Source: Verrucomicrobiales bacterium (GTDB taxonomy: Bacteria > Verrucomicrobiota > Verrucomicrobiia > Verrucomicrobiales > DEV007). Taken from it: a DNA stretch of 56,289 bases. Positions 12,421-35,520 of the stretch are shown one piece after another. How positions within the stretch are numbered: position 1 is the stretch's first letter; every line of letters begins with the position of its first letter. A model generated the notes under the pieces. That model searched no databases. It was not told where the DNA came from and saw nothing but the letters and a program-made list of their open reading frames with translations. Where the stretch lies: contig JARGPH010000017.1 in the NCBI GenBank assembly GCA_029213065.1, forward strand, positions 4,632-60,920. Direction: 5' to 3'. A program made the position numbers and the translations under genes.

Positions 12421-15400
12421 ATGAAAAGATGTTACTCCCTTCAACGGTGGCCTCAATTGGCGGTCGCCCTTTCGATTTTGTCAGCGGGATTGTCACTGCA
12501 GGCGGCTGATCACCCAAGTGCTCAGTTTGTAAGGATTTCCATCCCGGGTAAGGGAAAGATCCTGACACTGGCAGAGGTTGAAGTGATCAGTGGAGGCAAA
12601 AATGTCGCTCCTCAGGGAAAGGCGACCCAGTCCAGCGAAAGCGCCGGTGGCAAGGCTGAACGCGGGATCGATGGAAACAAGGACGGGGACTATAACAAGG
12701 GCGGTCAGACTCATACCTCGCAGGGAAAAGACGCGAATGATCCCTGGTGGGAAGTCGATCTCGGAAGCGTGAAGGAGATTGAGAAGGTTCAGATCTGGAA
12801 TCGCAATTCCCTTCAGGAACGTCTTGATGGATTCACTCTCGAGTTGCTCGATGCGAGCCGGAAACCGGTTCTTTCACGCGAGGGGAACGCGGCTCCGCTT
12901 GGAAGCGTTTCCTATCAATTCGGTGGGGAAGAGACTGAAGTGGCCTACTACGGTCAGGACGGAAAAGCGCTTCCGGTTCCGGTAAGACCTGAGAAGGTGC
13001 CCGATGGCTACCGTGACCCTGAGCCCTTCGCTTTTCAAAAAGAGGACCAGATCGCGATCATCGGCAACGGTCTTGCGGATCGTATGCAGCACGATGGCTG
13101 GATGGAGGCCTTTCTTCAGGCCGCCAATCCGGATGCGGAACTGGCGTTCAGGAACATGAGTCTCACCGGCGATCGCATTGATCGCTACCCACGCAGCAAG
13201 GGGTTCATGGAGATGAACGATTACCTCCGTCACGTTCAGGCGGATGTGATTTTCGCTTTCTTTGGTTACAATGAATCGTTTGCCGGGCCGAAAGGCCTTG
13301 AAGCGTTTGAGAAAAAGCTCACGGAGATGATTGCGACTTACCGTGGAATCAAGTCGAACGGGGAGAGCTTCGCACGGATCGTTCTCTTCAGTCCCATTGC
13401 TCATGAGAATCTGAATGATCCCAACCTTCCGGACGGGAAAGGCAACAATCGTCGACTCGCGCTCTATTCCGCAGCGATGCAGAAAGTGGCGCAGCACGAA
13501 GGGGTTGCCTTCGTTGATCTTTTCAATCCGACAAAGGAACTCTACGCTGCTCAGTCAGAGCCGATGACCTTGAACGGAATTCATCTCAACGAGCGGGGGA
13601 ACTATCACCTCGGCAGAATTATCGCGAAAGCGCTTTCGGGTAAAGTGGTCGAGGACGAAGCGCTCCTTAGTTCGATCAAGGATGCCGTTCTCGAAAAGAA
13701 CTGGCATTGGCACAATCGCTATCGTGCCGTCGACGGGAATGATGTCTGGGGCAGTCGTTCGACACTGCGTTTTGTGAATGATCAATCCAATGCCGACGTG
13801 CTGATGCACGAGTTGACCATGCTCGACGTCATGACCGCAAATCGCGATCCTCTGATCTGGTCAAAGGCGAATGGAAGCGATTGGAAAGTGGACGACAGCA
13901 ATGTCCCTGAACCGGTCGAGGTCATCTCCAACGTGGGCGGTGGGAGCAAGAGTTCCAGTTCAGACAAAGAGGGGAATCTCGAATATCTCTCCGGGGAGGA
14001 GGGGATCGAAAAGATGACCGTTCCCGAGGGGTTCAAGGTCAACCTATACGCTGACGAAGCCATGTTCCCCGAGATGGTGAACCCTGTGCAAATGCAGGTC
14101 GATGGAAAAGGGCGACTCTGGGCTGCGGCCTGGGCAACCTATCCGAAGTGGGAGCCGCTTAAGGAAATGAATGATGCCCTGCTCATCCTTCCTGATGATG
14201 ACGGTGATGGGGTTGCCGACCGTTGTATTGAGTTTGCCAAAGTGCACAACCCGCTCGGTTTTGAATTCTGGAACGGAGGGGTCATCGTCACTTCCCAGCC
14301 GGATATTCTTTTCCTGAAAGACACCGATGGTGACGACGTCGCTGACGTGCGTTACGTGCTCTTTCAGGGCACGGGAAGTTCCGATACCCACCACGCTGCG
14401 AACAACCTTATCTTCGGTCCGGATGGTGGAATCTACTGGCAGAGCGGCGTCTTCCTGCAGCACAATCACGAGCACCCGTGGGGGCCTTCCCTCGAAGCGA
14501 ATGCCTCCGCGATGTATCGCTTTGATCCACGCCGCTATACGATTTCCTTTCATGCCGGAAACTCTCCGAACCCACACGGGACGAGTTTCGATGACTGGGG
14601 TTACATGTATGCGAACGATGGCACCGGCGGGCGATCCTATCAGGTGCGCCCGGATGGGGAGGGCTTCAAAATGTTTCCTCTGGTGACGAAAGAAGTGAGA
14701 CCCGTCGCGGCCGATCAGATCATCGGTTCCACCAATTTCCCGGACGAGATGCAGGGGAATTTTCTCGTCTGCAACACGATCGGGTTTCTCGGCTTGAAGC
14801 AGTATCAGCTTCACCGCGATGGCTATGAAGTGAAGACGGTGCAAAAGGGGAAGAAGGGCGAGCCTGACACGGAAGTAACCGTGAAATACGAACAGGGCGA
14901 AGTCTGGGGCACCCCCACCGATGAGATGCTCTCGAGCGCAGATAAGAATTTCCGCCCCACCGACGCGGTCTTCGGCGAAGACGGGGCACTCTATGTATCC
15001 GACTGGCACAACGTCATCATCGGGCACATGCAGCACAATATCCGCGACCCCCATCGCGACAAAAAGCACGGCCGTATTTATCGCATTGTGAATACGAAGA
15101 AGCCACTTCAGGAGCCCGTTGAGATCGACGGTGCCTCAGTTGCCGCCTTGCTGGAGAACTTTAAGCATCCGGTTTCTCATGTGCGACATCGCACACGGGT
15201 TGAACTGAGTGAGCGGAGTGCCGACGAAGTCATTCCCGCGGCGAAGCAGTGGGCCGCCACCCTTGACCCCGCGAAGAAAGAAGATGCGATTCCGCTGCTT
15301 GAAGCGCTCTGGGTGCATCAGCAGTTCAATGTCAGGGACCGTGATCTTTTGAAAGTGGTTTTGAGCTCGGTTGATCCTCATGCGGTCAATGGTGCGAAAA

Positions 15401-15930
15401 CGGTGAAGCACCACTGGGATGTGGCTGACCCGACCAAGAATGTGGTCACGAGCCCGATTGAGCAGGAGGAGGAGAAGATCGATATTGATATTCCGGAGCA
15501 CTTCTCGAAGGCGGAAGCCGAAGCCTACAAGCTCGGTGCCGAAGTCTTTCATCGGGATGCTCACTGCGTGACCTGTCACCAGGGAACCGGCGATGGGATT
15601 GTAAATATCTATCCTCCGCTCAAGGAAAGTCAGTGGGTTACGGGGAATGAAGATCGTCTCATCAAGTTGACTCTCAATGGCCTCTGGGGGGCGATCGAAG
15701 TCAATGGCGTCACCTACGATCCCACCAAAGGGGTTCCCCCGATGACGGCGTTCAAAGCGCTCCTCGATGACAACGAACTCGCCGCTGTTCTCACTTATGT
15801 GCGAAACACATGGGGAAATAAAGCGTCGCCAATCTCCCCTGATAAGGTGAAGGAGGTCCGCGAAGCGACCAAGGCGCAGCAGATTTTCTACAAGCCGGAG
15901 GAGTTGCTCAAAGCGCACCCCTTCGAGTAG
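12421..15930 (+). CDS. Fusion: discoidin-like + SGNH-like + membrane-bound dehydrogenase propeller + cytochrome c
   Basis: 1169 residues with a signal peptide (cleavage near QAA/DH, about 29). An F5/8-type-C-like sugar-binding domain spans about 30-170 ([20 protein letters not shown]). An SGNH-fold domain spans about 205-410, but its block I reads IIGNGLADR (215-220) where GDS is expected, and block V reads NGIHLN (385-390) in place of DxxH; block III GYNE (282-285) keeps its Asn. From about 530 to 900 comes the PVC membrane-bound dehydrogenase beta-propeller ([30 protein letters not shown]), and near the end a single heme site, CVTCH (Cys1049-His1053). Such proteins are exported and probably oxidise sugars, passing electrons to heme c. 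The catalytic SGNH serine seems absent. A terminator follows. Confidence 0.88.
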
Positions 15931-15950
15931 GTTTTCCTCTACCGATTTAT

Positions 15951-15984
15951 GCGGTTCCTGTATCTCGCGGGAGCCGCTTTTTTG
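15951..15984 (+). terminator. Rho-independent terminator
   Basis: A 9-bp stem with two or three G-U pairs (15951-15959 with 15969-15977) is followed by six T. It lies 21 bp after the stop of the fusion gene, before the convergent minus-strand gene ending at 16028. Confidence 0.75.
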
Positions 15985-16027
15985 TGCCGGTCAGGCCGAG
16001 GGGAACTCGCTGTGTGGGTTTCAGTGT

Positions 16028-16903
16028 TCACTCAGAATGCACTTTTTTCCAACCGCTGATCCAATCTTCGAGCGGGGGAACGTCGCCCTCGTTTTCTTTC
16101 ACGAATCTTTTGACCTGGGCAAGATCGAGGACGCCGACCTGAAAGTATTGCCGTTCCTGATTGGTTCGCGGTTCAAAATTTTCCCAGATCAGCGTGGCCT
16201 TCGACCTGTTCTCTGACCAGGTCCACTCATCGTTTGGATCAAAACTGACGAACTCCGTGTGGACGTCGTCGGCGAAGGTCACTTCGGCGGTGAGCTTTTC
16301 AATTTCGTCTCTCCATGCTCCACCGGTTCTGGTTTCGTAGATGAAAAAGGCATTCATTGAACTGTCTATTCCGGTGGGGCAATCATACTCGCGTTCGATG
16401 ATGACTTCCTCGCCTTCGGGAAATTCCACCTCAATCACATACCAGGCGTGTTTTTGAATGGAGCCGTCATAATTTTCGGTCTTCGGCTTATCCACTTTCT
16501 CGCGAAAGATTGATCCGTCCGGCTTGAGAATTTCTCTGTAGTAGCCCTCGACGAGTTTCGCCTCGACCGTTTCGCCATTGACGCGGCTCACGAGATTTTC
16601 AATCGGTCCGATGATATCACCGTCCATTTCTGACCGCGAGGCGTTGGGAAATCCCAGCTTCTGAATCGCACTGCCGCCCTTTTTGTGGCTGAGAAAGGTG
16701 AACCGGGCGATCACTTTAGTCTTTTTGACCCCGAAATGAATATCGAGATGCTCCGACTTCATTTGAATGATGCTTTCGGCTCCGGGTCTCCAGCCGATTG
16801 GTTCAGGGCCTCCCGCGCCATCGTTGAGGGCGGCATCATTGGCGTGGCTCGCGATGAGGCCATTCAGGATCAGGCTTGCGATGATAACAAAGCGATTGTT
16901 CAT
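16028..16903 (-). CDS. Secreted DUF4424-like protein
   Basis: 291 residues from the ATG at 16903; a longer reading frame begins at 17050 but would overlap the DUF2752 gene and lacks a signal, whereas 16903 gives a good signal peptide (LILNGLIASHAND). The mature protein is rich in beta strands and acidic residues: NDGAGGPEPIGWRPGAESI, then KSEHLDIHFGVKKTKVIARF, and later VIEREYDCPTGID. This layout resembles DUF4424 proteins, whose function is unknown; they look like periplasmic immunoglobulin-like domains. It is the last of three genes on the minus strand (18343 to 16028). The family match is moderate. Confidence 0.6.
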   Translation of the reverse strand: MNNRFVIIASLILNGLIASHANDAALNDGAGGPEPIGWRPGAESIIQMKSEHLDIHFGVKKTKVIARFTFLSHKKGGSAIQKLGFPNASRSEMDGDIIGPIENLVSRVNGETVEAKLVEGYYREILKPDGSIFREKVDKPKTENYDGSIQKHAWYVIEVEFPEGEEVIIEREYDCPTGIDSSMNAFFIYETRTGGAWRDEIEKLTAEVTFADDVHTEFVSFDPNDEWTWSENRSKATLIWENFEPRTNQERQYFQVGVLDLAQVKRFVKENEGDVPPLEDWISGWKKVHSE

Positions 16904-16965
16904 GTCGGCATGATAACACTGCTCCGTCCTGAAGAGAGCACAAAATGGAGTGCCGTGATCGGGTG

Positions 16966-17364
16966 TCACGGAAGAAAGAGAATCAGGTAGATCCAGTTTA
17001 ATGTCAGGATCGAAAAAAGGAGCAGGCTGAGCTTTTTGACGCTGATCCACCGGCGTCCCTCCCCGGGAGCTCGACCGCGGTAAAAGCGGGTAAGCGCGAC
17101 GATGAACCAGATCAGCACCGCTACGACGCCGAGGATGACGGCCGGATTGAACGCGATTGCTTCAAGGAGGTGGCCGTGTGAGAGCGATTCGAAGGCCCGG
17201 GTCCCGCCGCAGGAAAGACAGGGGATACCGAAGGTGTTCCGGAACCCGCAGGAGGGCGCCTGGATCGGACTGCGCTCATAAACTCTCGCGAAGCCAACCA
17301 GTGCGACAACGGCGAGGAAGGTGACCGTTGGCGCGACGAGAACTTCAGGATGCCTTCGGGCCAT
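16966..17364 (-). CDS. DUF2752 membrane protein
   Basis: 132 residues with three membrane segments. Between the first and second lies the DUF2752 signature: CGFRNTFGIPCLSCGGTRAF, with two spaced cysteines and the CGGTRA motif, then a helix ending HGHLLEAIAFNP. Its role is unknown; such proteins often sit near envelope genes. The start at 17364 lies 4 bp after the stop of the gene before it (17369), so translation is probably coupled. The next gene begins 62 bp downstream. Confidence 0.85.
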   Translation of the reverse strand: MARRHPEVLVAPTVTFLAVVALVGFARVYERSPIQAPSCGFRNTFGIPCLSCGGTRAFESLSHGHLLEAIAFNPAVILGVVAVLIWFIVALTRFYRGRAPGEGRRWISVKKLSLLLFSILTLNWIYLILFLP

Positions 17365-17368
17365 CGGT

Positions 17369-18343
17369 CTATTGTGGCGTCGGTACGATGAAAAGATGCG
17401 CCTTCACTTCTCCACTGTCGGAGATCGTTTTGATCGAGTCGAGGAGGAATCGTTTCTCGTCGAGCGAAGCATTATCAATGAGCTGTTTGCGAATGGCATC
17501 GAGCTTCAGCCGGATCGCGGAACGATCCACCGCCTGTGCTTCGAGACGGTAGCGGGGGAACGGGAGATTGGAGTGCTCGCAGACTTCGTCGTAATCCTTG
17601 AGGAGTCGCGCAATCCGCCCGGTATGGGCTGTCTTGCCATCGATATCGACGGCGAGAAGGTTGGTTGATTGAATTTGCTCACGGAGGGAGGAGCCTCTCG
17701 ATTCGGTGAGGTCGACGAGGTCCTCGATATTCAATTCCCCCTCGACGAGGTAGGTTGGCGCTTCCTCTATCAGCGTCGCCCGGGCCGGTGCGTAGAGTTC
17801 CCCTTTGAGGAGCCACTCACCTTTTTTCCAGTGAATATCGACTGACTCCATGGCCTGTGGAAAGCGTGCCTCGAAAAGCATCTGTGTGATTTTCTCAAGA
17901 TCGGTTTCCCGCTTTTCGGTCATCGATTTCGCAAATTCACCGAGTGCGGTCGTGAGCGACGTTTTCAGTTCGTTGAACCGGGCCTGCTCTTTTTCGGTTC
18001 TTGCGACAGCGTAGGGGGTGTTGAGCGAATGGTATTCGGTCAGGAGCACTTCCGCACTGCCCGGTCCGATGTTGTGTTTCGTCAAAATAGATTCGGCAGT
18101 CGGGGCGAGCGGGTCTTTCAGCCCTCTCAGTCGTTTCTTGAAAAAACCGAGACGCTCGACACTGAGGATCTCAATTCCCGGCTCCGAGCGGAGGTCAGCA
18201 AGGGCGCTTCTCCATTGAAACCCGCGAACGAGAAGGAATAACGTCATTCCGAGGATGAGCGCGGCGAGGCAGGCGGAACCGATCACATAGGTGGTCGATT
18301 TGGGGGTGCGTTTCGCAGGGCTGGCTTCTTCAGCTTCTTCCAT
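17369..18343 (-). CDS. Single-pass membrane protein with BON-like region
   Basis: 324 residues from the ATG at 18343 (an upstream in-frame start at 18496 would overlap the dehydratase gene). A short cytoplasmic segment (MEEAEEASPAKRT) is followed by one membrane helix at about residues 21-41, and the rest faces the periplasm. The segment LRSEPGIEILSVERLG, then LRGLKDPLAPTAESIL, recalls the region that comes before OmpA peptidoglycan-binding domains in some proteobacterial proteins. A stretch MESVDIHWKKGEWLLKGELY has a BON-like strand pattern. No OmpA domain follows. The last bases nearly touch the DUF2752 gene. Function unknown; anchoring or envelope integrity is only a guess. Confidence 0.5.
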   Translation of the reverse strand: MEEAEEASPAKRTPKSTTYVIGSACLAALILGMTLFLLVRGFQWRSALADLRSEPGIEILSVERLGFFKKRLRGLKDPLAPTAESILTKHNIGPGSAEVLLTEYHSLNTPYAVARTEKEQARFNELKTSLTTALGEFAKSMTEKRETDLEKITQMLFEARFPQAMESVDIHWKKGEWLLKGELYAPARATLIEEAPTYLVEGELNIEDLVDLTESRGSSLREQIQSTNLLAVDIDGKTAHTGRIARLLKDYDEVCEHSNLPFPRYRLEAQAVDRSAIRLKLDAIRKQLIDNASLDEKRFLLDSIKTISDSGEVKAHLFIVPTPQ

Positions 18344-18413
18344 ACTCCAGTCGATTCGAAACCCTATCCTAAACCCGCGCGGGAATCGAGAGTGTTTTTG
18401 ATTCGTTAACCAT

Positions 18414-20138
18414 TCAGAAAATATCAGGTTCAACGACGTCATCGCCGGCGTGCATGAACCGGAAATCACAGCCCTCCGGTGCCTGAGTAATCTCATCGGC
18501 GTAGAGCTGACCGTAACCGCGGCGATGGCGACGGGGGGGAGCGGTCCATTCCGCGAGTCGTGTCTGCAGTTCTTCGTCCGAAATTTTCAGCTCGAGGATG
18601 CGTTTTTCGACATTTACCTCGATGATATCACCGTCTCGCACGGCTGCGAGCGGGCCGCCAATCGCCGACTCCGGGGCGATGTGAAGAACGCAGGCGCCGT
18701 AACTGGTTCCGCTCATGCGGGCGTCGGAAAGGCGCAGCATGTCGCGCACGCCCTGCTTGAGAAGGTAATTCGGGATCGGAAGCATTCCCCATTCAGGGAT
18801 TCCCGGAGCGCCGATCGGACCGGCATTCTGGAGGACAATGATGTGGACCGCGGTGAGACCCATCGACTCATCGTGAATTCGCTCTTTGAGGTCGGCGTAG
18901 TCTTTGAAAACGACGGCGGGGCCTTCGTGGGCGAGAAGCTTCGGTTCCGCTGCTGTTGGCTTGATCACCGCTCCGTCGGGGGCGAGATTGCCGCGAAGAA
19001 CAAAGGTGCCACCAGCATTGGAGACAGGCTTATCTAGAGGACGGATCACGTCGTCGTTGAAGACTTCGGCGCCTTCAAGATTCTCCCCGAGGGTTTTTCC
19101 GGAAACGGTCAGGGCATCGAGTTTGAGTTGTGATTTGATCTGGCTGAGAAGAGCGAGAATTCCCCCGGCATCATAAAAGTCCTCCATCACATATTCCCCG
19201 CAGGGGCGGATGTTGGCGATCACGGAGAGCTGCTGCGAGATCTCATCGAACTGTTCGAGCGTCAGCTTGATTCCGGCGCGGCCTGCCATCGCGATGAGGT
19301 GGATGATCGCGTTGGTCGATCCGCCCAGAGCCATGTCGGTGACGATTGCATTGTGGAAAGCGTCCTCCGTCAGCAAGTCGCGCGGGATGACTTTATCCCA
19401 GGCGAGATCGACGATGCGCCGCCCGCAGGCCGAGGCCATTCTCGCGTGAGTCGAATGCACTGCGGGAATCGAGGTCGAGCCGGGAAGGCAGAGGCCCAGC
19501 ACCTCGGCAATCGCAGTCATGGTCGAGGCGGTGCCCATTGTCATGCAATGGCCGGGGGAGCGTGCAATTCCGTCTTCGAGCTCGTTCCAGCCGTCTTCAC
19601 AGAGATTTCCGGCCTGACGTTCCGCCCAGTATTTCCACATGTCGGTTCCGGAGCCCAGTGTTTCGCCGCGCCAGCAGCCTTTCAGCATGGGGCCTGCGGG
19701 GAAAAAGATCGAGGGAAGGTTCGCCGAGGTCGCTCCCATGATGAGGGCGGGGACTGTCTTGTCGCAGCCCCCCATAAGAACGACGCCGTCGAGCGGGTAG
19801 CATCGCATCGTTTCCTCCACCTCGAGGGCGAGGAGATTCCGGTAATACATGCTCGTTGGCTTCATGAAGCTTTCCGAGAGCGACATCACGGGAATCTCGA
19901 CGGGGAAACCTCCCTGTTGCCAGACGCCTCGTTTCACTTCCTCGGCGCGGTCGCGAAAGTGGGTGTGACAGTTGTTCATGTCAGACCAGGTGTTGAGAAT
20001 GCCAATGACCGGCTTCGCTTTAAAATCCTCGGTATCGAATCCCATCTGCTTAAGGCGGGAGCGGTGACCAAAGCTGCGCTGATCGTCCGGAGCAAACCAG
20101 CGGGAGCTGCGAAGGGTGGAAGGGTCTCTTTCTGACAT
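18414..20138 (-). CDS. IlvD/Edd family sugar-acid dehydratase (L-arabinonate dehydratase-like)
   Basis: 574 residues, the usual length for this family. The three cysteine motifs for the iron-sulfur cluster are present: NNCHTH (Cys57), GGCDKT (Cys125) and SPGHCMTMGTAST (Cys198). The N-terminus (LRSSRWFAPDDQRSFGHRSR) and the C-terminus (PPRRHRRGYGQLYAD) are those of pentonate and other sugar-acid dehydratases rather than the branched-chain amino-acid enzyme. It would remove water from an aldonate to give a 2-keto-3-deoxy acid in the cytoplasm. It stands 70 bp upstream of the BON-like gene and diverges from the SGNH-like gene at 20243. The substrate is uncertain. Confidence 0.88.
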   Translation of the reverse strand: MSERDPSTLRSSRWFAPDDQRSFGHRSRLKQMGFDTEDFKAKPVIGILNTWSDMNNCHTHFRDRAEEVKRGVWQQGGFPVEIPVMSLSESFMKPTSMYYRNLLALEVEETMRCYPLDGVVLMGGCDKTVPALIMGATSANLPSIFFPAGPMLKGCWRGETLGSGTDMWKYWAERQAGNLCEDGWNELEDGIARSPGHCMTMGTASTMTAIAEVLGLCLPGSTSIPAVHSTHARMASACGRRIVDLAWDKVIPRDLLTEDAFHNAIVTDMALGGSTNAIIHLIAMAGRAGIKLTLEQFDEISQQLSVIANIRPCGEYVMEDFYDAGGILALLSQIKSQLKLDALTVSGKTLGENLEGAEVFNDDVIRPLDKPVSNAGGTFVLRGNLAPDGAVIKPTAAEPKLLAHEGPAVVFKDYADLKERIHDESMGLTAVHIIVLQNAGPIGAPGIPEWGMLPIPNYLLKQGVRDMLRLSDARMSGTSYGACVLHIAPESAIGGPLAAVRDGDIIEVNVEKRILELKISDEELQTRLAEWTAPPRRHRRGYGQLYADEITQAPEGCDFRFMHAGDDVVEPDIF

Positions 20139-20242
20139 AAGGAATTTGTAGCGCGAACCAAAAGAATGGGAAGGGAAACTTTTGAGTAGTTGGCCGCCAT
20201 CCCGTCCTTGCAGATGATTGCATCAGTCGCCAACATGTCAGG

Positions 20243-21253
20243 ATGAGGAGAGCGATCCTGTTGACAGTTCTTTTGGGATGCCTGTTTGAGGCGAATGCGT
20301 TTGATCCGGCCCTGCAGGATGACTCGCAGGCGCTGGTGCGGCATTTTAAGAAGCCACCCAATCCTGTTGGGCCTGCAATCAAAGAGGGTTCCTTCGTGCC
20401 CAATGAGGGTGAAACGATCTCGCTGATGGGTGGGGCGGATGTCTACTTGATGCGGCAGTCTCCCGATTTGGATATCGCGATGCTCTCTGCATGGAAGGGA
20501 AAGAAACTCCGGGTTCGGAATCTTGGGTGGTCAGCGGATACCGTTTACCGTCAACAACGTCCGATGTATTTTTACACTGAAAAAGGTGACGATCGTGAGG
20601 GCAGTGTTCCCGATCTTCGTGAGAAAATTGATCCGGGAACGATGATCCTCATGTTCGGGAAAATGGAATCACTGGACGGAGAGGCCCGTCTTTCTGAATT
20701 CGTGACGAGCTACGAAGCTCTCGTCTCCGCGTTGAAGCGCTTTTCTGAACGCATCGTCCTCGTCGCTCCGATACCCTTTAGTGAGGCCGAGACACCAGCT
20801 CAACCCGGTGGAGATAGTCGCGAATTGGCTGAGGAAAGAAATGTCATCCTCGCGAAGTATACGGAGGCGATCAGAGCCCTCGCGGAAAGGCAGGGTGTCC
20901 GCTATTTTGATTCGGGTGATTACGAGCCGGGTGCTTTCAGCGGGAACGGGCTTTACCTTTCTGAAACCGGTCAAAGGCAGTTTGCGGTCAGACTGGCGAA
21001 GGAGCTGGGATGGAAAGGGGAGTGGCACGACGGGATTGAAGAAGAGGTTCGATTGAAGAATCAGTTATGGCATCAGTATTACCGGCCGACGAACTGGGCA
21101 TTCCTTTTCGGGGATCGCCAGAGTGTTCCCAGCTCGCGGGACAATGAAGACCCGAGCCGCCGATGGTTTGAAGAGGAAATTCAGGAGATCCCGTCGCTTA
21201 TCGAAGCCTCGGAGAAGCGCCTGTGGAAACTCACCGAAGGGATCGTGAAATGA
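20243..21253 (+). CDS. SGNH-fold protein with degenerate active site
   Basis: 336 residues with an N-terminal export signal; LLGC at residues 10-13 may be a lipobox, or cleavage may follow ANA at 19. The layout of an SGNH hydrolase is present, but block I reads LMGGADVY (63-66 in place of GDS), block II is RNLGWSADTV, block III is FGKMES where GxND is expected, and block V reads NGLYLS (235-240) in place of DxxH. It therefore lacks both Ser and His and should not act as an esterase by the usual mechanism. Its last bases overlap the start of the dehydrogenase gene (ATGA), so the two are probably made together. Confidence 0.7.
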   Translation: MRRAILLTVLLGCLFEANAFDPALQDDSQALVRHFKKPPNPVGPAIKEGSFVPNEGETISLMGGADVYLMRQSPDLDIAMLSAWKGKKLRVRNLGWSADTVYRQQRPMYFYTEKGDDREGSVPDLREKIDPGTMILMFGKMESLDGEARLSEFVTSYEALVSALKRFSERIVLVAPIPFSEAETPAQPGGDSRELAEERNVILAKYTEAIRALAERQGVRYFDSGDYEPGAFSGNGLYLSETGQRQFAVRLAKELGWKGEWHDGIEEEVRLKNQLWHQYYRPTNWAFLFGDRQSVPSSRDNEDPSRRWFEEEIQEIPSLIEASEKRLWKLTEGIVK

Positions 21254-23925
21254 AGTGTTTATTGACTAATCTAATCGCTGTCGTCGCTCTGGCATTCTCG
21301 TCTTCAGTGGAGGCAGTATCCGTGGGGAAGACTGCAAAAGACAATTCGGTCGAGGCTCAGTTGGAGGCTTTCAAGGTCCACCCGGATTTTGAAATCAATC
21401 TCTTCGCCGACGAATCGATGGGTATCGCCAATCCGATTGCAATGCACTGGGATGAGCGGGGACGGCTCTGGGTTCTTACGACCCTGACATACGCCCAGCT
21501 AAAACCCGGACAGGGACCGAATGACACCCTCGTGATTCTCGAAGACACCGACGGAGACGGAAGGGCGGATAAATCAACCGTCTTCGCTGACGGCCTCGAT
21601 ATGCCGATGGGATTCGCCCTTTATGAGGATGGCGTCTTTGTCGGCGAAGGAGCCGATCTCCTTTTTCTGAAGGATGAGGATGGGGATGACGTCGCCGAGA
21701 GTCGTGAAGTTGTTCTCACCGGTTTCGGGACAGGGGATACGCACCAGAACATATCCAATTTCACATGGGGGCCGGACGAGTGTTTGTATTTCAGTCAGGG
21801 CTTGCACTGTTATTCCCGCGTCGAAACGCCATGGGGAATTGTCAGAGGGGATACCGCCGGGTTCTGGCGATTTGATCCGCGCACCCTGCGGCTTGATCCG
21901 TTTTGTTTCCCCGCTCTCGCGAGCCAGAACCCCTGCGGCATTGTTTTTGATAAAGAAGGGTCGCTGTTCATCAAATCGAATAACAAGGAGCTCATCTTTG
22001 CGACGCCGGGTCTGATTCCGACAGCTCACCAGAATAATCTGGAGCCGATCGGTAACATCGGATCAACCCCCGGAAAGTCGATGGGCGGTGAATACGTGGC
22101 CTCAGCGCATCTCCCTGACTGGATTCAAAATCACATTCTCATCGCCGGTTACTATTCGCACCGTGTCAGTGCCTATCCGCTTGTGAAAGAGGGCTCCGGC
22201 TTCGCGAAAGTGGAGCCTCTTGAAATCCTCTCTTCCGAACACTCAAGTTTCCGTCCGGTTGAAATTCGAATCGGGGGAGACGGGGCTATCTACGTCGCTG
22301 ACTGGTTCAACCCTATTATTGGTCACTACCAGGCGTCCCTGCGGCACCCTGACAGAGACGCAGAGCACGGGCGCATCTGGCGCATGACTGCGAAAGGTCG
22401 TGAATTGACCCGACAGCTGCCGCTGTATCATCAGTTGCGTGTTAGTGACGTCCAGGACAAAACGCCCTATATGGGAATGGACGCGGCGATCGAAGATCCG
22501 CGTGCGAGGCTGCGCGCCATCGTTGCCGAGGCCGGACGGAAGGACGCTGAGGCGATGAAAGAAATTTTGAAAGCTCTCGATTATCCTCGTGATCGCTTTA
22601 TCGACTACGCACTGGAACAGTCGGTGCACGCTTTGGCTCCCTACTGGCTGCCTGCGGTGGAATCGGGTGACTTGCAATTCAAAGATTCGGAACACCTTGC
22701 TTACGCTTTGGAAACCATCGGTGGCGCTGATGCTCTGAAAATTGCTAAGCGCTCCTTCTCTGATGAATCGCTGTCCGATGAGAAGCGAGCCCGTTTTGCC
22801 TCAGTTATTGCGAAAACAGGAGGGCCTGACGACTTACGTTCTCTCATCAATCCGCAAACCAGTGCGGCGACACTGAAGGCGATTGCCGAGGCCTCGGGGA
22901 AGCGCCGCGTTCGGCCGCCGGAGGGATTCGAGGATGATTTGTTAGCTCTTCTCGGATCGCAGGATCAGGCAATGCAGGTAAGCGCCATCCGTGTGGCCGG
23001 ACTCTGGAATGTGGCGAAAGCATCCAGCGTGATTCGCGAAACGATGTTGAATCGCGAGGCATCTCCCGAGTTGCGGAACGCCGCCGTTAGGGCTTTTACT
23101 CAAATTGAAAAGGGGGAGAGCGTTCCGGATCTTCTCGGGTTGTGGAGCAGTGAGAATGAGGCGCTGAAAGCTGCGGTTATGGCGGCGCTGGTGGAGGTTG
23201 CCCCGGTTCGAGCTGCTGAGAAAGCGGCTGAATATCTTGTCGGAATCAGCACGGCTGAGAAAGCGAGCCCCATCGTGAGTCCATTTCTGGCGAGAGAAAG
23301 AGGCCCGCAGGAACTGGCTTCGGCATTGAAAACGGCCGGTCTCGGAAGAGAATCAGCGACTGCTCTTTCCACCGCAATGAGTCAGATGGGACGCGGAGAT
23401 GAAGCTTTGTCAGGTGTGATTCAGGACGCGATGGGAGTTGCCTCCGGAGCGCGGGCCTACTCGGCTGAGTTTGTGAAAGCACTCGCCGCTGAGGTGGTTG
23501 CTTCGGGAGATCCTGAAGCCGGCGGGAAGATCTATCAGCGTGCCGAGTTGACCTGTTTCGCCTGCCACCAACTGAAGGGAGTCGGCGGTATCATCGGGCC
23601 TTCGCTCGATACGGTCGGTGCGGGACTCACACCTGATCTCCTTATTGAGTCTGTCCTCTGGCCTCAGCGACAGTTGAAAGAGGGATACTTTTCCACTCTG
23701 GTTTCCACCAAAGGCGGGGACTCCTTCTCGGGATACAAGGAAAAGGACGACGCTGAATTCATCTACCTCAAAGACACCGCGTCCGGGGAAGTGAAAGCGA
23801 TTCAGCGCGCCGAGATTTCCAAAATTACGAATGCAGGTTCACTCATGCCTCAAGGCCTCACCAACAGCCTCAGTGATGAGGAATTGCGGGATCTGATCGC
23901 TTATCTGGCGAGTTTGAAAGGGTAG
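21250..23925 (+). CDS. Membrane-bound dehydrogenase/HEAT/cytochrome c protein (PVC-type CxxCH)
   Basis: 891 residues from the ATG at 21250, which overlaps the stop of the preceding gene; an in-frame ATG at 21223 would destroy the signal peptide. Signal peptide to about residue 22 (SSVEA/VS). The propeller begins FKVHPDFEINLFADESMG and contains calcium-like loops DTDGDGRAD and DEDGDDVAE. HEAT-like helical repeats fill about 410-740. The C-terminal heme domain has CFACHQ (Cys769-His773) and the family's IGPSLDTVGAG and NSLSDEELRDLIAYL motifs. It would oxidise a carbohydrate and pass electrons to its heme, in the periplasm. Its fused relative is at 12421. Confidence 0.93.
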   Translation: MKCLLTNLIAVVALAFSSSVEAVSVGKTAKDNSVEAQLEAFKVHPDFEINLFADESMGIANPIAMHWDERGRLWVLTTLTYAQLKPGQGPNDTLVILEDTDGDGRADKSTVFADGLDMPMGFALYEDGVFVGEGADLLFLKDEDGDDVAESREVVLTGFGTGDTHQNISNFTWGPDECLYFSQGLHCYSRVETPWGIVRGDTAGFWRFDPRTLRLDPFCFPALASQNPCGIVFDKEGSLFIKSNNKELIFATPGLIPTAHQNNLEPIGNIGSTPGKSMGGEYVASAHLPDWIQNHILIAGYYSHRVSAYPLVKEGSGFAKVEPLEILSSEHSSFRPVEIRIGGDGAIYVADWFNPIIGHYQASLRHPDRDAEHGRIWRMTAKGRELTRQLPLYHQLRVSDVQDKTPYMGMDAAIEDPRARLRAIVAEAGRKDAEAMKEILKALDYPRDRFIDYALEQSVHALAPYWLPAVESGDLQFKDSEHLAYALETIGGADALKIAKRSFSDESLSDEKRARFASVIAKTGGPDDLRSLINPQTSAATLKAIAEASGKRRVRPPEGFEDDLLALLGSQDQAMQVSAIRVAGLWNVAKASSVIRETMLNREASPELRNAAVRAFTQIEKGESVPDLLGLWSSENEALKAAVMAALVEVAPVRAAEKAAEYLVGISTAEKASPIVSPFLARERGPQELASALKTAGLGRESATALSTAMSQMGRGDEALSGVIQDAMGVASGARAYSAEFVKALAAEVVASGDPEAGGKIYQRAELTCFACHQLKGVGGIIGPSLDTVGAGLTPDLLIESVLWPQRQLKEGYFSTLVSTKGGDSFSGYKEKDDAEFIYLKDTASGEVKAIQRAEISKITNAGSLMPQGLTNSLSDEELRDLIAYLASLKG

Positions 23926-24066: not shown

Positions 24067-25989
24067 CTATGCCATCAGCTTTGCGATGATCGCGTCGACG
24101 TCGTAGACGCAGCCGCCCCAGGTTCCGCCGCTGACATTCTGCATTGCGGCCCAGAGGCGGGTGTCACCGGGGACGTTGGGAAGCGGCTTCAGCTTTTCGT
24201 TGGTTTCCCTCGCGGTGAGTTCATGGAAATCACCGGCATAATCGACCGAACCGGTCATCTCGCGGCAATCAATCTTCACTCGAATGAGATCGCCGTCCTG
24301 CACTTTTCCAATCGGACCACCGGCCCAGGCCTCGGGGGAAATGTGGCCGACGCAGGCACCGGTCGAAACGCCTGAGAAGCGTCCGTCGGTGATGAGGGCG
24401 ACGTTTTTGCCCCAGGGAAGGTGTTTTAAGGCGATCGTAAGTTGCGCCGTTTCCGGCATGCCGCATCCGATCGGTCCAAGGCCGATGAGAACGATGACGT
24501 CTCCCTCTTTGATCTTATCGTCTCCGGTGGATTTGACCGCTGCGATCGCGTCCGGTTCCGAGGCAAAGACGCGGGCAGGTCCCTCGTGAAGGTAGATGCC
24601 GTTCTCATCGATTTTTGAAGGATCGATCGCGGTGGATTTGATGACGGAACCCTCCGGGGTGAGGTTTCCTCCGGGGAAGGTCACCGTCGAAGTCAGTCCA
24701 CGGGATGCGGCGACTTCGGGTGACATGATGACATTGTCAGGATCGATTCCGTCGAGTTGAGTCAGCTTCTCGCGAAGGCGTTGACGGCGTTCTGATTTCT
24801 CCCACCACTCGAGATTCTCTCCGAGGGTTTTCCCGGAAACGGTCATGGCGTCGAGACGAAGCATGCCCTTGTCGCGGAGGTGGAGCATTACTTCGGGGAC
24901 GCCTCCGGCGAGAAAGACCTGAACGGTGGCGTGGTGCACGGGGCCGTTCGGGAGAGCGTCGACGATGCGTGGAATCTCGGCATTGACCCGTCTCCAGTCG
25001 TCGACAGTGGGGCGTCGCACTCCGGCCTGATGAGCGACGGCGGGAAGGTGCATGATCAAATTGGTGGAACCACCGAAAGCGGCGTGAACTGCGAGTGCAT
25101 TTTCGAAAGCGTCTTCAGTGAGGATGTCTTTGGTGTTAATGCCCCGGTTCTGAAGCGTCATCACCGCTGCGCCGGAACGTCTCGCCATGTCTCTCCAGAT
25201 TTCCGAGCCGGAAGGGGCGAGAGCCGAATGCGGCAGTGTCAGGCCAAGCGCTTCCGCAATAACCTGACTCGTTGCGGCGGTCCCGAGAAACTGGCAGCCA
25301 CCACCGGGGGAGGCACAGGCGCGACATCCGGCCTCGGCAGCATCAGCAAGGCTCATTGTGCCCTGAGCGTAGCGGGCCCCGATCGTCTGAATACGCCCGA
25401 GGTCTTCTTCGGTGTCTTCGCTCACGAGGGTTACGCCACCGGGGACGAGAATCGACGGCATGTCGTGGCAGGAGGCCAGTGCCATCATCATCGCGGGAAG
25501 TCCTTTGTCACAGGTCGCGACCCCTACGACCCCTTTGCGGGTCGGGAGGGAACGGATCAGTCGGCGCATCACGGTCGATGCGTCGTTGCGGAAGGGGAGA
25601 GAATCCATCATCCCGTCGGTTCCCTGAGTTCGTCCGTCGCAGGGATCGCTTACGAAGCCGGCGAAGGGAACGCCACCGAGAGAGGCAATGATTTTTGCTG
25701 CCTCCTCCATGAGCAGGCCCACTTCAAAATGACCACTGTGATAGCCGAGCGCCGTCGGTGTTCCGTCAGGCTGGCGAATCCCGCCCTGAGTGCTCAGAAT
25801 AAGGAAATCGCCGCCGTCGACTTTATCCGCGTCCCAGCCCATTCCGACGTTCTGGGTCCAGCCGAAAAGGTTGCCGCTGGGTTGGGTGGAGAGCTGTTCG
25901 GGGGAAAAGGGGAGCAAGCCGGATGGCCCCGGTGCGGTGGTGCGAAGAACGTAAATACTTTCGTCCTGAGAATCGAGAAGTGGATGCAT
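24067..25989 (-). CDS. YjhG/YagF-type sugar-acid dehydratase (D-xylonate dehydratase-like)
   Basis: 640 residues, slightly shorter than E. coli YjhG and YagF. The N-terminal segment SGNLFGWTQNVGMGWD and the block LGYHSGHFEVGLLMEEAA are diagnostic of the YjhG branch of the IlvD/Edd superfamily. Cluster-type cysteines are at 117 (SDPCDGRTQG), 160 (VATCDKG) and about 232 (SPGGGCQFLGTA). It would dehydrate a pentonate such as D-xylonate to the 2-keto-3-deoxy acid. The FAH-family gene lies 11 bp upstream on the same strand, making a two-gene operon that covers two successive steps of a Weimberg-type pathway. Substrate from sequence is likely but not proven. Confidence 0.9.
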   Translation of the reverse strand: MHPLLDSQDESIYVLRTTAPGPSGLLPFSPEQLSTQPSGNLFGWTQNVGMGWDADKVDGGDFLILSTQGGIRQPDGTPTALGYHSGHFEVGLLMEEAAKIIASLGGVPFAGFVSDPCDGRTQGTDGMMDSLPFRNDASTVMRRLIRSLPTRKGVVGVATCDKGLPAMMMALASCHDMPSILVPGGVTLVSEDTEEDLGRIQTIGARYAQGTMSLADAAEAGCRACASPGGGCQFLGTAATSQVIAEALGLTLPHSALAPSGSEIWRDMARRSGAAVMTLQNRGINTKDILTEDAFENALAVHAAFGGSTNLIMHLPAVAHQAGVRRPTVDDWRRVNAEIPRIVDALPNGPVHHATVQVFLAGGVPEVMLHLRDKGMLRLDAMTVSGKTLGENLEWWEKSERRQRLREKLTQLDGIDPDNVIMSPEVAASRGLTSTVTFPGGNLTPEGSVIKSTAIDPSKIDENGIYLHEGPARVFASEPDAIAAVKSTGDDKIKEGDVIVLIGLGPIGCGMPETAQLTIALKHLPWGKNVALITDGRFSGVSTGACVGHISPEAWAGGPIGKVQDGDLIRVKIDCREMTGSVDYAGDFHELTARETNEKLKPLPNVPGDTRLWAAMQNVSGGTWGGCVYDVDAIIAKLMA

Positions 25990-26000
25990 GGTGTCAGTGC

Positions 26001-26852
26001 TTAAACCTTTTCCACGGTATTGGTGAGAGTTCCAATACCATCAATGGTGATGGACACTTCGTCGTCCACTTGCAGCGTGAAATCCGAGTCGGGAACGATT
26101 CCGGTGCCGGTCATGAGGTAGGCCCCGTGAGTGAATTTGTTGCAGCGGAAGAGAAAGCCGGCGAGCTCCTCGAAGGTGCGCTTGATTTGATCGATCGCGG
26201 TCTCTCCGCTGAAAACCACTGATCCGCTGCGGGTGATCGTGATACTTATGCTCGTGTCAGGTGCAGCAGCTTCACCCACGACGAGGCAGGGGCCGAGCGC
26301 GCAGGCTCCGGTGTAGCTTTTTGCCTGTGGCAGGTAGAGCGGGTTTTCCCCTTCAATCGAGCGCGAGCTCATGTCGTTGCCGATCGTGTAACCGAAAATG
26401 TCGCCGGCGCTGGAGATTGCGAGAGTGAACTCCGGCTCGGGAACATCCCAGGTGGAGTCGTGACGAATCCCGACGTGTTCGAGATGCCCGCGGACGCGAG
26501 CGGCGGTGGATTTAAAGAACAGTTCGGGGCGCTCGGCGTCATAGACTTTGTCGTAAAAGACATCGCCTCCGGCGGACTCCGCTTCTTCCATGCGGGCGGT
26601 TCGACTGCGGAAATAGGTGACTCCCGAAGCCCAGACTTCCTGCTGGCCGATCGGAGCCTGGAGGGGGATTCCGCGATGCATCGGCTCACCATCGGATGCG
26701 GCCTCAAACGCGTCGGAAACGAACTGATGAGGGTGGGGGGAGCTGAAAAGGTCATCGAACGAGAAACCCGGTTGAACGAATTTAAAGACGCCCGGGGAAT
26801 CGGTGTTTTCGATGAAAACCGCTTCGTGACTGCGAAAGATGCGAAATGCCAT
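26001..26852 (-). CDS. Fumarylacetoacetate hydrolase (FAH) family protein, likely 2-keto-3-deoxy-pentonate dehydratase
   Basis: 283 residues from the ATG at 26852 (an upstream start at 26894 only adds 14 residues unlike the family). The FAH fold is recognised by YDAERPELFFKSTAARV, then IGNDMSSRSIEGENPLYLPQ and SYTGACALGP, with an acidic metal site spread over these loops. This subgroup includes enzymes that remove water from 2-keto-3-deoxy-L-arabinonate or -D-xylonate to give 2-oxoglutarate semialdehyde. That fits the YjhG-type dehydratase 11 bp downstream, which would make its substrate. The semialdehyde dehydrogenase that completes the route is not in this window. Cytoplasmic. Confidence 0.85.
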   Translation of the reverse strand: MAFRIFRSHEAVFIENTDSPGVFKFVQPGFSFDDLFSSPHPHQFVSDAFEAASDGEPMHRGIPLQAPIGQQEVWASGVTYFRSRTARMEEAESAGGDVFYDKVYDAERPELFFKSTAARVRGHLEHVGIRHDSTWDVPEPEFTLAISSAGDIFGYTIGNDMSSRSIEGENPLYLPQAKSYTGACALGPCLVVGEAAAPDTSISITITRSGSVVFSGETAIDQIKRTFEELAGFLFRCNKFTHGAYLMTGTGIVPDSDFTLQVDDEVSITIDGIGTLTNTVEKV

Positions 26853-26938
26853 AGCGCGATGATACCGAAAAGCGGGGAGTCTTCCAGCACTCAAGAGGAC
26901 GTAGTTGAGTGTTTCAGGGATTGCGATTAGGCTGAGAG

Positions 26939-29032: not shown

Positions 29033-30481
29033 CTACTTCTTCACAAACTCCGGATTCTCGACCGGAAGTTTGGCTTCCTGTTCGGCGAGCGCTTCGATCA
29101 GCCGTGCCTCCAGTTCCTTGACCTTGTCCGGGAGTTTTTCAGAGAGGTCGGTGTCTTCTGAAAGATCTTTGGCGAGATCATAGAGTTCATAGGTTCCGAC
29201 CCAGTGTTTGATCAGTTTCCAGTCGCCTTTTCGGATGATGGAGTAGGGACCGGGAGGATGGCGGTAGTGGGGAAAGTGCCAGATGATCTCATCGCGGTCG
29301 AGCTGCACCTTTCCGCCACTGATGAGGTGGGGCAGCAACGACCTGCCGTCGATAGGCCGGTCAGAGGGAAGGGGGACGCTCGCGGCGTCGAGAATTGTGG
29401 GGAAGAGATCAATCGAGCTCACCGGCATATCGGAGGTGACTGCGGCGGGAATCCTCCCGGTCCAGCGAACGAGGAGAGGAACGCGAATTCCGCCCTCGTG
29501 AGGGTACCCTTTTCCGCTTCGCAGGGGAGCGTTGTCGGTGGGATTGCCTTTGTTATCGAGACCACCATTGTCACTCGTGAAAATCACGAGGGTGTTCTCA
29601 GAGAGGTTCAGTTCGTCTAACAAATCCAGAATCGCACCGGTGGAATCATCGACCGATTCGACCATCGCGGCATACTTGGCGTTGGCTTCGGATTTGCCCT
29701 CTTTTTCATACCTGGCGGCGACTTCGGGAATCGCCTGGATGGGGGTGTGTACTGCGTAGTGCGAAAGCTGGATGAAGAAAGGCTCGTCTTTCCACTGGCG
29801 GATCAGGTTAAGCGCTTCGTCGCCCTCTCGATGGGTGAGGTATTCGCCTTTCTTGCGGCCGGGGAGAAAGGGGATGCCCTCACGAAGAGACTCGTGTTTC
29901 CCTTTTGGTTGGTTGTAGGGATCGAAATAGTTTGGTGGCTGGCCGTAGTCACAGCCTCCGAGATTCACGGTGAAACCCTGCTGGTTGGGATACCAGTCAG
30001 GATCGCCAAGGTGCCATTTTCCAATGTAGGCGGATTCGTAGTTCATCGCCGCGCCGAGTGCTTCCGCAACCGTGATTTCGTCGTGCTCCATCCAGAAAGG
30101 ATTGGGAGGGCAGAGAAGTTCGTTTTTCGGCGAGCCGACGTATTCGGTCGGGTTCGCGTCGGGAGTTCCCATGCCGCCACGTTGAAAGCGGGATCGAATC
30201 CAGTCAGTTACCCCGATGCGGTGCGGGTAGCGTCCGGTTTGCACGGCAGCGCGGGTCGGGGAACAGACTGCGCAAGAAGCATACCCGTTCGTAAACCTGA
30301 CTCCCTCATTCGCGATCCGGTCGATGTTGGGTGTTTTGTAGTAATCAGAACCCTGACAGCTCAGATCCATCCAGCCCATGTCGTCGACGAGAATCAAAAT
30401 GACATTCGGCGGTCGTTCCTCCGCAGTGACGACGGCCGTGGCGATCAGAGCCAGTGAAATAGATAAAAGAAAACGCAGCAT
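29033..30481 (-). CDS. Secreted sulfatase (type I, Cys-type)
   Basis: 482 residues with a signal peptide (cleavage near VTA/EE, residue 20). The metal-binding LVDDMGW (Asp33-Asp34) comes first, then the formylglycine motif CSPTRAAVQTGR (Cys73, Arg77), in full agreement with CxPxR. A further metal-site segment, FTSDNGG, is present, and the C-terminal region has the usual WHFPHYRH and KLIKHW segments. It would need a formylglycine-generating enzyme, not in the window, and remove sulfate from a carbohydrate in the periplasm or outside. The substrate is unknown. Confidence 0.93.
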   Translation of the reverse strand: MLRFLLSISLALIATAVVTAEERPPNVILILVDDMGWMDLSCQGSDYYKTPNIDRIANEGVRFTNGYASCAVCSPTRAAVQTGRYPHRIGVTDWIRSRFQRGGMGTPDANPTEYVGSPKNELLCPPNPFWMEHDEITVAEALGAAMNYESAYIGKWHLGDPDWYPNQQGFTVNLGGCDYGQPPNYFDPYNQPKGKHESLREGIPFLPGRKKGEYLTHREGDEALNLIRQWKDEPFFIQLSHYAVHTPIQAIPEVAARYEKEGKSEANAKYAAMVESVDDSTGAILDLLDELNLSENTLVIFTSDNGGLDNKGNPTDNAPLRSGKGYPHEGGIRVPLLVRWTGRIPAAVTSDMPVSSIDLFPTILDAASVPLPSDRPIDGRSLLPHLISGGKVQLDRDEIIWHFPHYRHPPGPYSIIRKGDWKLIKHWVGTYELYDLAKDLSEDTDLSEKLPDKVKELEARLIEALAEQEAKLPVENPEFVKK

Positions 30482-33027: not shown

Positions 33028-33042
33028 GATAGAGCGGGGCAA

Positions 33043-35382: not shown

Positions 35383-35520
35383 TACCGGAAACAACTGAAG
35401 AGTAATGATATACAACGTATTCGACAATTCGGTAGTTTACGCTATCGCGGTAGGCGGGGTGCCCCTGATGGCACGCTTCTCTGCTCGACCTTTTGATTCG
35501 AACCCCGTAGATTTTCCGTC

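Follow-up and report, generated by a model that had tools for sequence, protein, structure and literature searches.

An SGNH-fold module without its catalytic serine, fused or coupled to PVC-type propellers, and its possible part in sugar oxidation

Roles have been assigned to blocks I, II, III and V of SGNH hydrolases in excerpts of PMC9487903, which also describe CE2 enzymes that work with a Ser-His dyad and no Asp. For Lac161_ORF7, a protein of the order TIGR02604-HEAT-cytochrome c encoded by DNA assigned to Chthoniobacter, hydrolysis of lactose by the purified protein was reported and the protein was called a putative beta-galactosidase (passages of PMC5342196). DUF1080 proteins were proposed from fitness data for periplasmic cleavage of 3-keto-lactose (passages of PMC9007349), and some planctomycete-type cytochrome genes bear carbohydrate-binding modules, their functions being reported as unknown (passages of PMC5615132). 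The DNA analyzed here, called the window, is a stretch of 56,289 nucleotides at positions 4,632 to 60,920 of contig JARGPH010000017.1 (Verrucomicrobiales bacterium, assembly GCA_029213065.1). Two SGNH-like domains are encoded in it, each paired with a propeller and a cytochrome c of the Planctomycetes-Verrucomicrobia-Chlamydiae (PVC) type: in protein A all lie on one chain, and in protein B the SGNH-like protein is followed by a separate gene for its partner. The best explanation, held with middling confidence, is that both belong to a rebuilt, non-esterase SGNH module that is the sugar-handling part of an exported or periplasmic sugar oxidase. Several literature searches returned no paper on the SGNH-propeller pairing; several of them were broad and subscription literature was largely uncovered, so absence is not proven.

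Fused and split forms of the SGNH-propeller unit

The features of the two loci, in window coordinates, were as follows.

12421..15930, + strand: protein A, single open reading frame (ORF) of 1169 aa, its domains assigned by profile matches and an AlphaFold2 model
12520..12915, + strand: F-type-lectin-like (discoidin-fold) domain of A, residues about 34-165
13015..13680, + strand: SGNH-like domain of A (P0001), with GNG at 13063-13071, GYNES at 13264-13278 and TLNGIH at 13567-13584
13657..13995, + strand: helical linker of A from SGNH domain to propeller, partly present at the C-terminus of B too
13996..15096, + strand: propeller of A (TIGR02604/DUF7133; DUF7133 E 2.9e-63, TIGR02604 175.9 bits against a cut-off of 122.2)
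15532..15813, + strand: cytochrome c domain of A, with CxxCH (Cytochrom_C, PF00034, E 4.5e-8)
20243..21253, + strand: protein B, SGNH-like, 336 aa, with a signal-like N-terminus, GGA at 20429-20437, GKMES at 20657-20671 and NGLY at 20945-20956
21250..23925, + strand: partner of B, with propeller, HEAT_2 repeats and cytochrome c; open frame from GTG at 21223
21250..21253, + strand: ATGA stop/start overlap of B and its partner

Protein A had been predicted to be a single polypeptide of four named parts, which the ORF and the Pfam and TIGR02604 matches bear out. From N- to C-terminus it comprises the F-type-lectin-like domain, the SGNH-like domain, the helical linker, the TIGR02604/DUF7133 propeller, helical repeats and the cytochrome c. 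A hydrophobic segment at the N-terminus resembles a Sec signal, and A may be exported. The domain that had been called discoidin-like does have a discoidin fold and lies nearest to F-type lectins by sequence match (FBP32, E 2e-34; fucolectin-related, 4.4e-16; lectin 1k12, 1.4e-10; Pfam F5_F8_type_C_2, 2e-10); FBP32 and 1k12 are F-type lectins. THT and NR...ERLDG of A align with FBP32, and are presumably the fucose-contacting His and two Arg of F-type lectins. The SGNH domain of A matched Lipase_GDSL_2 in Pfam (E 9.4e-12) and, by profile, the solved structure 1yzf (E 1.7e-12). The AlphaFold2 model of A had a mean predicted local distance difference test (pLDDT) score of 83.4, mostly >90 in the SGNH part, and a whole-chain Foldseek search with this model returned GDSL and acetylxylan esterases for the predicted SGNH fold, as well as sugar-dehydrogenase-like propellers.

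Protein B matched Lipase_GDSL_2 at E 6.8e-7 (30.4 bits, slightly under the Pfam cut-off of 32.9). Its predicted fold is SGNH, the model (mean pLDDT 74.1) matching BT4096 (7br2; Z 18.8, root-mean-square deviation (rmsd) 4.5, 259 residues aligned, a span that extends into the C-terminal helices of B) and Axe2 (Z about 16). That B and the dehydrogenase/CxxCH protein are separate genes with an ATGA overlap, as originally predicted, was seen at 21250-21253. The ATG of the partner at 21250, which comes before a signal-like segment, lies inside a longer frame opened by GTG (21223-23925), and the product starts MKCLLTNLIAVVALAFSSSVEA. This partner passed the cut-offs of both TIGR02604 (212 bits against 122.2) and TIGR02603 (90.6 against 68.15 bits) and has a Cytochrom_C match with CxxCH; TIGR02603 was not among the matches listed for A. 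At its C-terminus B retains the linker segment NxxWHxYYRPxN...GDR that follows the SGNH domain in fused proteins.

Relatives of the SGNH domain of A were taken from 80 named loci, which gave 86 further domains (87 including A), and a diverse profile (A2) was searched against 194 Verrucomicrobiota genomes, 3 genomes of the named loci and 119 Planctomycetota genomes. A threshold of 90 bits, chosen after the score gap had been inspected (92.3 above, 80.2 below), divided family domains from general SGNH domains. Family members at or above it, as read from the listings, occurred in 8 of the 194 Verrucomicrobiota and 18 of the 119 Planctomycetota genomes. Domains repeating residues 21-140 of another were dropped (206 hits to 194). 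The pooled set held 169 non-identical family domains, to which the named loci contributed 80, the genome searches 83, the rest of the window's genome 4 and the window itself 2, and 25 general SGNH domains from the same searches formed the comparison set. Rows with a gap at a column were left out of the count for that column, and joint counts cover the 164 of 169 rows in which both the Ser and the His position could be read. Family members came mostly from Verrucomicrobiota and Planctomycetota; one (L060, locus labels being ours) is from a record titled Proteobacteria. One general domain, L121 (121 aa), is the tail end of a family member interrupted by a run of N, which leaves 24 true comparisons.

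The pairing had been proposed to be a functional unit, and the survey agrees: 147 of the 169 family domains were in frame with a propeller, SGNH first, and 13 lay directly upstream of one on the same strand, the remainder being 3 cut by contig ends and 6 without a propeller in the sequence read. Among the general SGNH domains compared, none was fused to a propeller and L121 was the sole adjacent case. L121 (G000:C52), in the window's genome, marks another separate SGNH-propeller pair in which a short run of N splits the SGNH frame. The planctomycete locus L277 encodes ThuA, SGNH and propeller in three separate genes, arranged in tandem as the domains are in the fused chains.

A tree was built from 97 family and 18 general domains, excluding domains ≥75% identical to a kept one, those <140 aa and general ones whose Ser column could not be read, which reduced 194 rows to 115. 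Family and GDS enzymes were split with 100/100 support. B sits in a clade of 8 rows (100/100), whose other members are fused except for L193, which is split and long-branched; B and L193 paired as sisters (98/94), but both branches are long and the pairing may be false. Fused and split states required at least 4 changes over 90 scored rows, and the Ser state at least 8 over 96 rows. Since the clade of B is otherwise fused, bar this one split relative, and B shares part of the linker, the two architectures first described at this locus are two states of one unit in one family.

B was at one point considered an orphan, as a first search matched 4 of 145 genomes of the phylum; this was refuted by matches in 73 of the 74 genomes of the window's own family. 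Among 35 B-like homologues, the propeller gene was directly downstream in 27, and also in L339, where the open frame spans B. It was directly upstream in 2 (L360 and L363), the reverse of the usual order, and was not seen for 5 (L334, L335, L350, L361 and L362), several of them at contig or stretch ends.

The domains attached to the unit vary. Among 96 fused proteins with complete 3' ends, 28 have cytochrome c as the C-terminal electron-transfer domain, 52 have a cupredoxin, 12 have both and 4 have neither, and PF00127 was confirmed in two cupredoxin-bearing relatives. In 135 fused proteins with complete 5' ends a ThuA-like part was present in 51 and the lectin-like domain in 63, these totals including 43 proteins with both, where ThuA-like means similarity to the N-terminus of L046 (33.2 bits, slightly under the Pfam ThuA cut-off of 33.4); L119, L120 and L277 pass that Pfam cut-off. 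From L119:3087 onward, in the window's genome, a frame of 2245 aa combines ThuA with an SGNH domain of the GNS type and matches TIGR02604. PF06439 (3-keto-disaccharide hydrolase) was present in 9 of 9 scanned fused relatives of B, which were picked for long N-termini, so this is no frequency. Four of them (L179, L183, L210 and L269) are among the 6 fused rows of the B clade, and the others (L184, L364, L365, L367 and L369) are outside the tree. By our count, the window's genome has 26 TIGR02604 frames over the cut-off, 6 of which carry or adjoin the SGNH module.

Replaced and retained residues

The motif strings given in the original prediction (GNG and GGA in block I, NGIH and NGLY in block V) are correct. 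The claim that the catalytic residues are gone in both proteins stands for B, where all five are lost (Ser to Ala, Asp to Asn, His to Tyr, oxyanion Gly to Ala and Asn to Met). It does not stand for A, where only Ser and the block-V Asp are replaced, and the His in NGIH, the oxyanion Gly (TGD) and the Asn (GYNES) are retained. These changes exceed chance, because they are family-wide, yet rare in the 25 ordinary SGNH domains compared.

The nucleophile Ser was found in 10 of 167 family domains against 17 of 19 comparison domains; Thr occupied this position in 43 of the 167. At the position of the GDS Asp the family had N in 137 and D in 6 of 167 (GDS in 17/19 comparison domains), and at that of the block-V Asp N in 150 and D in 10 of 166 (Asp in 22/25). 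The block-V His was present in 149/166 family and 24/25 comparison domains, the oxyanion Gly in 131/168 and the oxyanion Asn in 138/168, and the residue after the block III Asn was Glu in 156/168 family domains against Asp in 19/23. The earlier view that homologues would not usually keep Ser and His was thus right for Ser and wrong for His. Ser, His and Asp occurred together in none of the 164 readable family domains (the full set in 15/19 comparison domains), and no Ser-bearing family member has the block-V Asp. All 87 A-type domains have Asn at the Asp positions of both GDS and DxxH and keep His190 and Asn86, with G 72, T 8, S 4 and A 3 at the nucleophile position. As the sample leans towards A, counts were also weighted by 50% identity clusters, which gave Ser 9%, His 83%, block-V Asn 83%, oxyanion Asn 53% and oxyanion Gly 59%. 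Judged by the alignment, loss of Ser and Asp is a family trait and not a local accident.

For B-like domains, the window's B included, block I reads GG in 36/36; Asn86 of block III is replaced by Met in 34/36, and the His is present in 16 of 29 that are readable there. Neither the window's B nor any of its 12 homologues of ≥46% identity shows the His (0/13, of which 6 have Y, Q, G or D and 7 are alignment gaps).

A second, near-invariant polar set consists of Glu31, Arg46, Asp53, Arg60, Glu87, Ser88 (153/168 family domains) and Asn145, and holds in the 36 B-like proteins too: R46, D53, R60, S88, P127 and N145 were kept in 36/36 and E31 and E87 in 35/36. R23 was kept in 4/36, and T185 is also outside the set kept in B-like proteins. 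Minimum changes on the tree were 23 for the nucleophile column (rank 60 of 206 columns), which varies among G, T, A, S, E and V, and 16 and 17 for the oxyanion columns. The figures were 1 for R46, 2 for E31 and D53, 3 for R60 and T185, 6 for R23 and N145, 7 for E87 and 9 for His190. On these columns, the nucleophile and oxyanion positions drift and the second polar set is near fixed. Arg46 (3/22), Thr185 (3/22) and Ser88 (4/24) are rare in comparison domains.

For A-like domains dN/dS had a median of 0.165 and a maximum of 0.65 over 1146 pairs. For B-like domains it ranged from 0.069-0.287 (median 0.198) in the 26 of 31 pairs with finite dS, the 31 being those above 60% identity and none of them including the window's B. 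Values near 0.2 speak for selection and against decay.

Genes around the B locus

Three neighbours on the minus strand flank B and its partner.

18417..20138, - strand: L-arabinonate dehydratase (IlvD/Edd; NF009559, 946.6 bits against 882), divergent neighbour of B
24070..25989, - strand: YjhG/YagF D-xylonate dehydratase (TIGR03432, 1078.5 bits against 808), convergent neighbour of the B partner
26004..26894, - strand: FAA-hydrolase family protein (PF01557, E 3.3e-16), adjoining the xylonate dehydratase

Both dehydratases are syntenic with B in several loci of the genus. Of 12 B loci (homologues of ≥46% identity), 8 have one dehydratase or both, and all 8 are in the window's genus; a ninth member of the genus, L355, has the FAA gene only and no dehydratase. 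Outside the genus, neither a dehydratase nor an FAA gene was found at the B loci of L348, L349 and L334 (a 3.7-kb contig). Two frames, 16031-17050 and 17372-18496 (-), had no Pfam or NCBIfam match at E 1e-4 and are likewise found next to the B cluster in several relatives from this genus. The genes for A and B are no more than about 10 kb apart in other genomes of the genus (L347, L352 and, by coordinates, G320:C8), and the two architectures can be conserved neighbours.

Further along the window, 35521-36615 (+) encodes a PF10282 seven-bladed lactonase-type propeller about 10 kb past the xylonate dehydratase, and 31708-35427 (-) holds a DUF1501 gene beside a PSCyt1-PSCyt2-PSD1 protein (planctomycete-type cytochrome domains). 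Sulfatases were identified at 29036-30481 (-) by Pfam and at 42953-44437 (+) solely by 28% similarity to the first.

Possible roles and comparison with known systems

That the SGNH domains are not canonical Ser esterases had been proposed from A and B, and the sequences surveyed make a Ser-His-Asp esterase very unlikely for both, as none of the readable family domains unites the three residues. In the explanation preferred here, the lectin and SGNH parts would hold or present a saccharide or oligosaccharide, with the former active-site pocket as the probable ligand site; the propeller would withdraw electrons from the saccharide, and the fused cytochrome c, or in relatives a plastocyanin/azurin-like domain, would hand them on. 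In B this unit is divided between two translationally coupled genes, and its SGNH part would most likely be a partner or docking subunit, because the remaining His and oxyanion residues are lost too. The kept His and the fixed charged residues are compatible with new chemistry, and the further losses of B argue that in B the module can work without it. Oxidation of sugar by the propeller is suggested by its modelled fold and its fusion partners: the best match to the propeller of A was the pyrroloquinoline quinone (PQQ) sugar dehydrogenase 3a9g (Z 25.6, rmsd 3.0, 282 aligned), and other PQQ-type matches were 3das (Z 23.5) and AA12 6i1q (Z 23.0). As to the carbon oxidized, the PF06439 partners would point to C3 and the aldonate dehydratases around B to C1, which are differing chemistries.

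Several observations weigh against this explanation. DFPase-type propellers (Z about 24) and lactonases score nearly as high as 3a9g, and a sequence-profile search of the propeller against solved relatives returned short propeller-repeat matches only, none of them a sugar dehydrogenase at E 0.001. For six family members, no propeller gene was seen in the stretch that was read. The sample leans to A, 80 of the 169 domains being from loci fetched as relatives of A, and cluster weighting lowers the oxyanion Asn to 53% and Gly to 59%. Comparison domains share part of the polar set (Arg60 8/9, Asn145 12/21, Glu31 8/20), and some fixed residues (E31, R46) may be structural. The frequent His (149/166), with Glu87, would fit a catalytic site equally well as a binding site. 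In L266 and L273, fused members of the B clade, the SGNH domain is preceded by 74-82 residues, too few for a 3-keto hydrolase domain, and L368 begins with its SGNH domain, leaving no space for one. Dehydratase synteny is confined to the window's genus, and L348 and L349 outside it are without it.

It is possible, though short of probable, that the SGNH domain is an enzyme with a new, serine-free mechanism acting on the product of the propeller. Such an enzyme might, for instance, open an aldonolactone, which is an internal ester, or cleave a 3-keto glycoside, His190 and Glu87/Asp53 serving as its acid and base. The conserved R23, E31, R46, D53, R60, E87, S88, N145, T185, N187 and H190, several of which lie in or beside the former active-site blocks, would serve such a site, and fusions to 3-keto-disaccharide hydrolases and the adjacent aldonate dehydratases suit a product-processing step. 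The absence of the His from the window's B and its closest 12 (0/13, with 7 gaps) and of R23 from all but 4 of 36 B-like domains speaks against it, as does the separate 3-keto hydrolase domain already present in some relatives. The broader form of this idea, in which a non-serine Arg/Glu/Asp/His site on the SGNH fold processes an oxidized sugar within a PVC redox enzyme of exchangeable modules (lectin, ThuA, 3-keto hydrolase, propeller, cytochrome or cupredoxin), is put forward a shade more tentatively.

A pure docking or scaffold subunit, whose conserved residues stabilize the fold or an interface, is unlikely. It would account for B, which lost Ser, Gly, Asn, Asp and His while B-like proteins remain paired with propellers, and for the linker segment common to fused and split forms; but most members keep the His, the oxyanion Gly and the Asn (149/166, 131/168 and 138/168), which are needless for a scaffold. 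That the domains are active esterases is improbable, even with an unusual nucleophile such as Thr or Ser of block I in some members, Ser88 or another residue. Thr in 43 and Ser in 10 of 167 domains, and Ser88 in 153/168, could supply one, but the block I position drifts (at least 23 changes) and the Ser members are without the block-V Asp, an objection that is weaker for these 10 given the CE2 Ser-His dyad described in the excerpts of PMC9487903. A Thr nucleophile was also considered, GNT being common, and was rejected as the leading explanation on the same number of changes and the absence of Asp. Decaying esterase remnants without function are scarcely credible: B is the lone domain of 164 that lacks all six hallmark residues and its terminal branch is long (1.56), but simple decay is rejected on dN/dS, which is close to 0.2 for A-like and B-like domains alike (the window's B is in none of the 31 B-like pairs), and on near-invariant residues and a pairing maintained across two phyla.

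The findings bear on three matters. The TIGR02604 propeller is listed by Pfam as a domain of unknown function (DUF7133), and the SGNH module defines a TIGR02604 subset with sugar-related partners (lectin, 3-keto-disaccharide hydrolase, ThuA and sugar-acid dehydratases), which makes the substrate of this subset testable. The family is also a large natural series of the dismantling of an esterase site, in which nearly all members have lost Ser and Asp, some the oxyanion residues and fewer the His, with a second set fixed. The label 'GDSL esterase', given from a Pfam match alone, is misleading for such domains.

Compared with SGNH/GDSL hydrolases (Lipase_GDSL_2; 1yzf, Axe2, BT4096), the family has the common fold, with blocks I, II, III and V in the same sequence, but is without Ser and the block-V Asp nearly throughout and is fused or coupled to a redox propeller. 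Like PVC-type heme-binding CxxCH proteins (TIGR02604/DUF7133; TIGR02603), both propellers of the window exceed the TIGR02604 cut-off and have a cytochrome c with CxxCH behind them; unlike the usual members, a subset carries the SGNH module, and in relatives a cupredoxin often substitutes for the cytochrome c. To PQQ sugar dehydrogenases the likeness is one of predicted propeller fold, in which DFPase-like propellers come nearly as close, and a sequence-profile match is absent at E 0.001. Lac161_ORF7, compared by description only, has the same domain order as the B partner, and no SGNH part is described in the passages of PMC5342196. In the LacABC and DUF1080 route, periplasmic sugar oxidation is tied to DUF1080 (PF06439), the domain fused to several B relatives; the dehydrogenase there is LacABC, and the passages of PMC9007349 mention neither an SGNH part nor a TIGR02604 propeller, the two parts that are joined in the proteins described here.

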